From: Streptomyces seoulensis
GTDB taxonomy: Bacteria > Actinomycetota > Actinomycetes > Streptomycetales > Streptomycetaceae
Length of the DNA stretch: 64,000 nt
Reading direction: 5' to 3'
Assembly (NCBI RefSeq): GCF_004328625.1
Contig: NZ_CP032229.1
Location: forward strand, 3,658,001-3,722,000
Below are positions 7,984-57,731 of this stretch, in pieces. Below the pieces are notes generated by a model that saw only the letters and a list, made by a program, of their open reading frames with translations, was not told where the DNA came from and made no database searches. A program made the position numbers and the translations under genes. Position 1 is the stretch's first letter; each line of letters starts with the position of its first letter.

Positions 7984-8145
7984 GACCCTTTGCGCTGCCT
8001 GTTAGCTGCCCCCTGCCCGTCACCAGGGGTCTGCCCTCGCTCGAGCACCGACGCCGAACTTCCCTGACCTGGGGTTTCCCGTCGTGAGCCTGAGAGAGGG
8101 ACCGGTACGCGCGTAGTGAGTCCGAGCCCTCGGAAGGACCCCCTC

Positions 8146-57558: not shown

Positions 57559-57564
57559 TATGAT
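57559..57564 (+). promoter_or_regulatory. -10 element of the tRNA-like gene
   Basis: TATGAT (57559-57564) is nearly the consensus TATAAT. Transcription would start near 57571, about 38 bases before the tRNA-like 5' end. No good -35 lies 16-19 bases upstream. The element is flanked by GATCA and TGATC in inverted orientation. Confidence 0.55.
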
Positions 57565-57608
57565 CATCACACAGCGAACGGCCGGAACAACTCCGGTACG
57601 AACGCCGC

Positions 57609-57681
57609 GCGTTGGTGGTCCAAGTCAAGACGCCCCGCTTCCTGCGGGGAAATGCAGGTGCAATCCCTGCCCAGCGCTCCA
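57609..57681 (+). tRNA. Divergent tRNA-Gly (UCC), candidate non-proteinogenic tRNA
   Basis: All arms pair. Acceptor GCGTTGG (57609-57615) pairs with CCAGCGC (57671-57677), discriminator T57678 and an encoded CCA (57679-57681). The D-stem GTC/GAC (57618-57620, 57629-57631) has an eight-base loop. The anticodon stem CCCCG/CGGGG (57633-57637, 57645-57649) has loop CTTCCTG, anticodon TCC at 57640-57642. The T-stem GCAGG/CCTGC (57654-57658, 57666-57670) has loop TGCAATC. G1-C72, C2-G71, G3-C70, U73 and C35-C36 are glycine identity elements. Deviations: D-loop without GG, G at 55 instead of U, U37, and C32 able to pair with G38. A degenerate pseudogene is the main alternative. Confidence 0.75.
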
Positions 57682-57685
57682 GCAC

Positions 57686-57719
57686 GAAGGCCGCTCCGGT
57701 TCCGACCGGGGCGGCCTTC
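57686..57719 (+). terminator. Terminator of the tRNA-like gene
   Basis: GAAGGCCGCTCCGGT (57686-57700) pairs with ACCGGGGCGGCCTTC (57705-57719) with one wobble and the loop TCCG. It begins five bases after the encoded CCA. It may also serve the minus-strand glycosidase gene that ends at 57732. Confidence 0.8.
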
Positions 57720-57731
57720 GCCGTTCCCGGC

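Follow-up and report, generated by a model that had tools for sequence, protein, structure and literature searches.

A dispersed family of divergent tRNA-Gly genes in Streptomyces that may donate glycine outside translation

Introduction

The tRNA-Gly species dedicated to pentaglycine synthesis in Staphylococcus carry a GUGC T-loop. In S. aureus these donors are non-proteinogenic tRNA-Gly(UCC) species encoded by extra UCC genes, and altered D- and T-loops together with a low tRNA score have been reported for them (PMC8007984). G49-U65 and G51-C63 are strong EF-Tu pairs which are changed to A49-U65 and A51-U63 in the dedicated species, where G18G19 is also replaced, and how aminoacyl-tRNAs come to serve cell-wall enzymes instead of the ribosome is called somewhat unclear in most instances (PMC4052509). 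A second related case is tRNA-Other of Bacillus cereus, a regulatory pseudo-tRNA tied to a genomic island. It is thought to act outside translation, bears a Trp anticodon and is charged poorly, and it forms part of a long transcript (PMC3399842). In Streptomyces, a review of natural-product FemABX enzymes covers Orf11, which uses Gly-tRNA, and DhpK (PMC12945691). A published table of tRNA genes places four UCC tRNA-Gly genes of S. ghanaensis, two of S. clavuligerus and one of S. coelicolor under codon GGA (PMC4932002).

The gene described here lies in a stretch of 64,000 nucleotides of Streptomyces seoulensis (NZ_CP032229.1, positions 3,658,001 to 3,722,000), referred to as the window. It is a member of a dispersed gene family, here named class B. 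Like the S. aureus donors, class B consists of additional UCC genes with a low tRNA score and altered D- and T-loops, and in both A51-U63 replaces G51-C63. It differs from them in that the 49-65 pair is G-C and not A-U, GG is kept in most D-loops and the purine at position 37 is lost; in addition, class B is dispersed, multi-copy and plasmid-borne, was matched in about half of the Streptomyces genomes and shows no link with the number of FemAB matches. With tRNA-Other it shares a tRNA-like gene thought to be extra-translational, whereas class B has its own short predicted unit, bounded by a -10-like element some 47 nt before the core and by a hairpin that follows immediately, and keeps the glycine identity bases. 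Among the titles and abstract openings listed by searches of an open-access library, none describes class B or the second variant reported below (class A) in Streptomyces.

Results

The tRNA-Gly gene of the window

The window copy was found with a -10 element, a leader hairpin and a terminator-like hairpin all in place (Table 1). It was called as tRNA-Gly(tcc) by ARAGORN and scored 42.6 bits with the Rfam tRNA model against a cut-off of 29, which bears out the full cloverleaf with encoded CCA described in an earlier note on this DNA. The TATGAT element of the note lies at 57559-57564. A wider Rfam search of 2501 bases did not have the window core among its matches. The hairpin downstream of the core is strong and no long T run follows it. 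The D-loop of this copy, CAAGTCAA, lacks GG, and G55, U37, C32-G38 and the main glycine identity bases were all found as the note had listed them. What the note observed in the window is thus confirmed, and its interpretation proved half right.

Table 1. Features of the class B copy in the window (positions of the window)
Feature	Position	Strand	Basis and remarks
-10-like element TATGAT	57559..57564	+	sequence; family members have it at a similar place (median distance to core 47 nt)
5' leader hairpin (CCGG/CCGG)	57574..57606	+	coordinates by eye; sequence variable among copies, fold persists
tRNA-Gly-like RNA, class B1, anticodon UCC, encoded CCA	57609..57681	+	ARAGORN, Rfam, family table
Anticodon arm CCCCG CUUCCUG CGGGG; C32-G38 a possible sixth pair	57633..57649	+	family table, predicted folds
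T arm GCAGG UGCAAUC CCUGC, with C50-G64, A51-U63 and G55	57654..57670	+	family table
Terminator-like hairpin	57685..57720	+	sequence; position kept in the family, sequence not

Ordinary tRNA-Gly genes with UCC, CCC and GCC anticodons are present in the same genome and decoding therefore needs no class B copy. A second class B copy was also found in this genome, upstream of a kdgD-like gene (named by eye), and was not among the matches of an Rfam tRNA search of the whole genome.

Size and distribution of the family

Class B was matched in 101 of 199 Streptomyces genomes by a DNA search in which at most four candidates were scored per genome, so that its counts stop at four, and which may overlook very divergent copies. 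With a stricter pattern (at most 3 mismatches) it was found in 88 of the 199 genomes with up to six copies each, and a reversed control pattern gave zero matches in the same set. Taking the larger of the two counts for each genome, 98 genomes have no copy, 60 have one, 24 have two and 17 have three to six. Genomes with class B are larger (mean 9.0 versus 8.1 Mb, p 4e-7) and copy number climbs with genome size (rho 0.32), in statistics that ignore kinship.

Among 72,556 plasmid records, 67 carry class B at 133 places (E <=0.01), 65 of them from Streptomyces and two from Streptantibioticus. Large plasmid records of S. clavuligerus were observed to hold 4 to 8 places each at the same threshold. 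In two genomes, copies were found at mirrored positions close to the two ends of the chromosome contig, an arrangement reminiscent of terminal inverted repeats (G068:C1:31069 and 12093705; G091:C1:37168, 49214, 10217401 and 10229447); one of the terminal copies of G068 has C33 (L331). A phage tRNA origin was rejected, as the window copy had no match in phage records and viral contigs had no exact match to the class B pattern.

Outside the genus, a covariance model found clear members in three genomes (G203, G279 and G294) of two other genera among 150 genomes of the family. Family-level matches in two further genera (g11 and g15) turned out to be ordinary tRNA-Gly(CCC) and tRNA-Arg. A class-wide sample of 296 genomes gave 11 matches outside the family, all weak, and the six that were inspected were four tRNA-Arg, one tRNA-Met and one without a tRNA.

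Conserved and covarying nucleotides

A family table of 45 distinct sequences was built from 257 redundant places. The regular expression used for the harvest fixes much of the core outside the anticodon arm and divergent members are therefore under-sampled. Bases were counted with a custom script, the automatic alignment having put the loop gap of subclass B2 (described below) into a stem.

The cloverleaf shows compensatory changes, more than expected by chance. Acceptor pair 5 was observed as U-G, C-G or U-A and pair 6 as G-C, C-G, U-G or U-A, while anticodon pair 4 occurs as C-G, A-U or G-C and pair 5 as G-C, A-U, C-G or G-U; only two cells of the whole pair table for the 45 sequences are non-standard. 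The check suggested in the earlier note, compensatory stem changes together with conserved G55 and U37, thus succeeded for the pairs and for G55, which was found in all 45 sequences in place of the U54-U55-C56 T-loop of canonical tRNA-Gly, and failed for position 37, where U was counted in 31 sequences and C in 7 and the base is absent in 7. The missing GG of the D-loop, also put forward in the note, is a property of the window copy and three other sequences and not of the family, as 41 of the 45 sequences keep it. The most common D-loop, CAAGGAAA, has no U at all and was found in 36 of the 45. We noticed that all four sequences without GG have a T-loop ending in UC, GC or GA and that 40 of the 41 with GG in the D-loop have GG at positions 59-60, a possible loop-loop covariation.

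One reading frame is open through the core, but inspection by hand showed that substitutions alter the amino acids while keeping the pairs, and class B is therefore an RNA rather than a protein gene. Apart from tRNA, Rfam families gave only matches below the cut-off.

Charging, decoding and EF-Tu features

Nucleotides that are invariant in all 45 sequences are G1-C72, C2-G71, G3-C70, G10, C50-G64, U73, C74, C35 and C36, the last two partly by construction since the search patterns for the main subclass, B1, contained both bases. The bacterial glycine identity set comprises G1-C72, C2-G71, U73, C35 and C36, and Thermus GlyRS further reads C50-G64, G10 and U16 (PMC9976931). The bacterial set is present in all 45 sequences, as the note had stated for the window copy. 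U16 is not kept in most copies, which counts against a chargeable tRNA. The invariant C35 and C36 could also serve a partner other than GlyRS.

The anticodon loop was observed to be CUUCCUG in 30 sequences, CUUCCCG in 7, a six-base C-A-R-C-C-G in 7 and CCUCCUG in 1. A purine at position 37 was found in none of the 45 and U33 is absent in 8, one of which has C33, so that the canonical seven-base loop with U33 and purine 37 does not occur in any of the 45. The six-base loops define subclass B2, which lacks U33 and one loop base (A33 is present) and retains C35-C36; it was seen in five genomes (G064, G137, G191, G194 and G203). Because the harvest left the B2 loop unconstrained, these copies are the telling case for the anticodon loop. 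C32-G38 is universal among the 45 sequences, as claimed earlier for the window copy, and forms a sixth anticodon-stem pair in predicted folds. ARAGORN called 159 of 168 distinct segments, all B1, as tRNA-Gly(tcc) and none of eight B2 loci (L333-L340). Since 37 of the 45 sequences retain U33 and the UCC anticodon in a seven-base loop, weak decoding is possible for B1.

The 51-63 pair is A-U, a weak EF-Tu pair, in 44 of the 45 sequences. In the genome of the window, the ordinary tRNA-Gly genes compared (UCC, CCC and one GCC) instead carry G49-U65 together with G51-C63. The 49-65 pair is G-C in 43, G-U in 1 and A-C in 1. The claim that features favouring translation are lost while the glycine bases are kept is supported by these counts, in which the decoding features and the strong 51-63 pair are gone. 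Charging marks kept with decoding lost fit a non-ribosomal glycyl-tRNA, and because the charging marks are kept and the codon-reading parts are lost, class B probably gives its glycine to a non-ribosomal receiver. The sequence evidence for a chargeable and poorly decoding tRNA-Gly is strong in B2 and fair in the rest.

A free-standing unit at many sites

In 165 of the 168 distinct segments the core is preceded, at 30-75 bases, by a TANNNT hexamer, the median distance being 47 nt (5th-95th percentile 45-53). Mean fold z-scores against shuffles are -2.35 for the leader and -5.6 for the trailer (55 nt after the core) compared with -0.3 for an upstream control, and the trailer is below -2 in 98% of the segments. 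Copies diverge in their leader and terminator sequences but hardly at all in the 71-nt core, and recognisable similarity beyond the core is confined to the -10 region and some stretches of the leader. The recurring -10, leader fold and trailer hairpin argue for the autonomous gene that had been proposed. C74 is encoded in all 168 segments and CCA in 76, and the encoded CCA is therefore not a family trait. Its absence is no argument against maturation, since the ordinary tRNA-Gly genes compared likewise encode U73-C74 without the full CCA.

TsaD is encoded upstream at 24 of the 168 loci, and the tsaD site of the window is therefore one of many. The 303 nearest genes fall into 194 clusters; in a Pfam scan of the 130 shortest cluster representatives, long proteins being left out, no domain occurred in more than four, and no conserved neighbour gene pointing to a receiving enzyme was found among the 168 loci. 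A riboswitch or attenuator for the next gene was rejected, as that gene is convergent at 102 of the 168 loci and belongs to no dominant family. The neighbour gene of the tsaD site was matched in 110 of 121 genomes, and the element was present in 10 of 30 such loci fetched. In some of the empty sites (for example L308 and L321) the flanking genes almost abut when compared by eye, and the same comparison revealed no clear target duplication. No means of movement was identified.

Class A and the cell wall

Dedication to cell-wall glycine bridges, the role suggested in the earlier note, is not supported for class B. FemAB (PF02388) was matched in all 199 Streptomyces genomes and class B was not found in 98 of them, divergent copies possibly being missed, and the gene is often plasmid-borne. 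Genomes with and without class B have 3.71 and 3.53 FemAB matches (p 0.66) and FemAB number is unrelated to class B copy number (rho -0.02), again in statistics over the 199 genomes that ignore kinship.

A second divergent tRNA-Gly(UCC), class A, was found just upstream of a tRNA-Gly(GCC) gene (G000:C1:2973260-2973331; L199:1350-1422) and at loci L242-L247 and L266-L294. A 27-base pattern (at most 2 mismatches) detected it in 198 of 199 Streptomyces genomes, mostly as a single copy. A longer pattern found it in 19 of 20 Streptomyces genomes, the twentieth being positive with the 27-base pattern, and in none of 206 genomes of other families in the class; class A occurs in genus g7 too. A tRNA-Gly(GCC) gene lies within 700 nt downstream at all 28 places with enough sequence. 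In four genomes (G018, G035, G051 and G060) class A was observed as three tandem copies about 114-119 bases apart.

The 17 distinct class A sequences have a D-loop of AGUAGUA or near, with A at the place of G18, and a T-loop with G55, and all 17 retain U33 and A37. The T stem is irregular and was read by eye as having a bulged U and A51-U63, while RNAfold favours a different T-arm fold. Class A thus shares with class B the UCC anticodon, G55, the glycine identity bases, encoded C74 and, under the bulged-U reading, A51-U63. It differs from class B in its place beside tRNA-Gly(GCC), its mostly single copy, its A37 and U33 and its D-loop. Class A is the better candidate for a Staphylococcus-like cell-wall donor; its near-universality matches the universal FemAB, from which we infer a link between the two.

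Two prophage-like regions, in which the genes were judged by eye, contain further divergent tRNA-Gly(UCC) genes that have G37 and a T-loop with UGCAA, at L346 about 8036-8107 (-) and L347:7557-7627 (+), and neither had a match in phage records. The corresponding UCC/UGCAA pattern matched one viral contig, IMGVR_UViG_3300015371_000025 (L354:1331-1363).

Discussion

The best explanation, which we put forward tentatively and with close to even confidence, is that class B is a dispersed, free-standing tRNA-Gly family of Streptomyces and close relatives that can be charged, decodes poorly and gives glycine to a process outside translation. The transcript would be processed like a tRNA and would be a substrate of the ordinary GlyRS, since most bases that this enzyme is known to recognise are retained. 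A51-U63 would make it poor at binding EF-Tu, and the lack of a purine at position 37, the loss of U33 and the six-base loop suggest that codon reading is bad, or nil in B2. Because both EF-Tu binding and decoding would be poor, the Gly-tRNA would be free for use by a non-ribosomal enzyme, the most plausible being a transferase of the FemABX type or another that depends on aminoacyl-tRNA. A more specific form, which is possible although we are inclined to doubt it, is that class B is a mobile, multi-copy, private glycyl-tRNA of large plasmids and chromosomes with which accessory gene sets bring their own non-ribosomal donor, class A being the one for the cell wall.

Alternatively, class B might be a regulatory tRNA mimic that occupies GlyRS or another tRNA-binding protein or forms the tRNA-like domain of a small RNA, in the manner of tRNA-Other. 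The repeated occurrence of a leader fold within a unit about 150 nt long, the almost frozen loops and the precedent of a regulatory pseudo-tRNA (PMC3399842) agree with such a role. We nevertheless consider it unlikely, as the conservation of acceptor pairs 1-3, U73 and C74 is that of a substrate, and the copies have little recognisably in common beyond the core except the -10 region and some of the leader.

The many unrelated sites, the rise of copy number with genome size and the presence or absence of the element at the tsaD site would also be expected of a compact selfish or passenger cassette that comprises its promoter and terminator, travels on plasmids and islands and has little host function. 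Compensatory evolution and invariant identity bases point instead to selection on the RNA and no means of movement was identified, which makes the cassette improbable. It is slightly more improbable that class B is an ordinary extra tRNA-Gly(UCC) which helps to read GGA and GGG: most copies have the UCC anticodon and U33, ARAGORN calls most segments as tRNA-Gly(tcc) and a published table counts extra UCC genes, which may or may not be class B, as GGA readers (PMC4932002), but no sequence has purine 37, B2 has a six-base loop with A33 and the 51-63 pair is A-U. Least probable of all is a decoy for toxins that target tRNA or Gly-tRNA (anticodon nucleases, or TacT-type acetyltransferases reading U73 and G71), where the plasmid location and the kept U73 and G71, reported as TacT determinants (PMC9976931), are set against the antitoxin family PF08681, weakly matched in 20 of 199 genomes of which 12 carry class B, near the expectation of about 10, so that a TacT decoy is not supported.

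Tables in which every UCC gene counts as a reader of GGA may have to be corrected. Furthermore, two natural tRNA-Gly variants, one near-universal and one dispersed, in an antibiotic-producing genus make the question of how aminoacyl-tRNAs are diverted directly testable in a tractable host.
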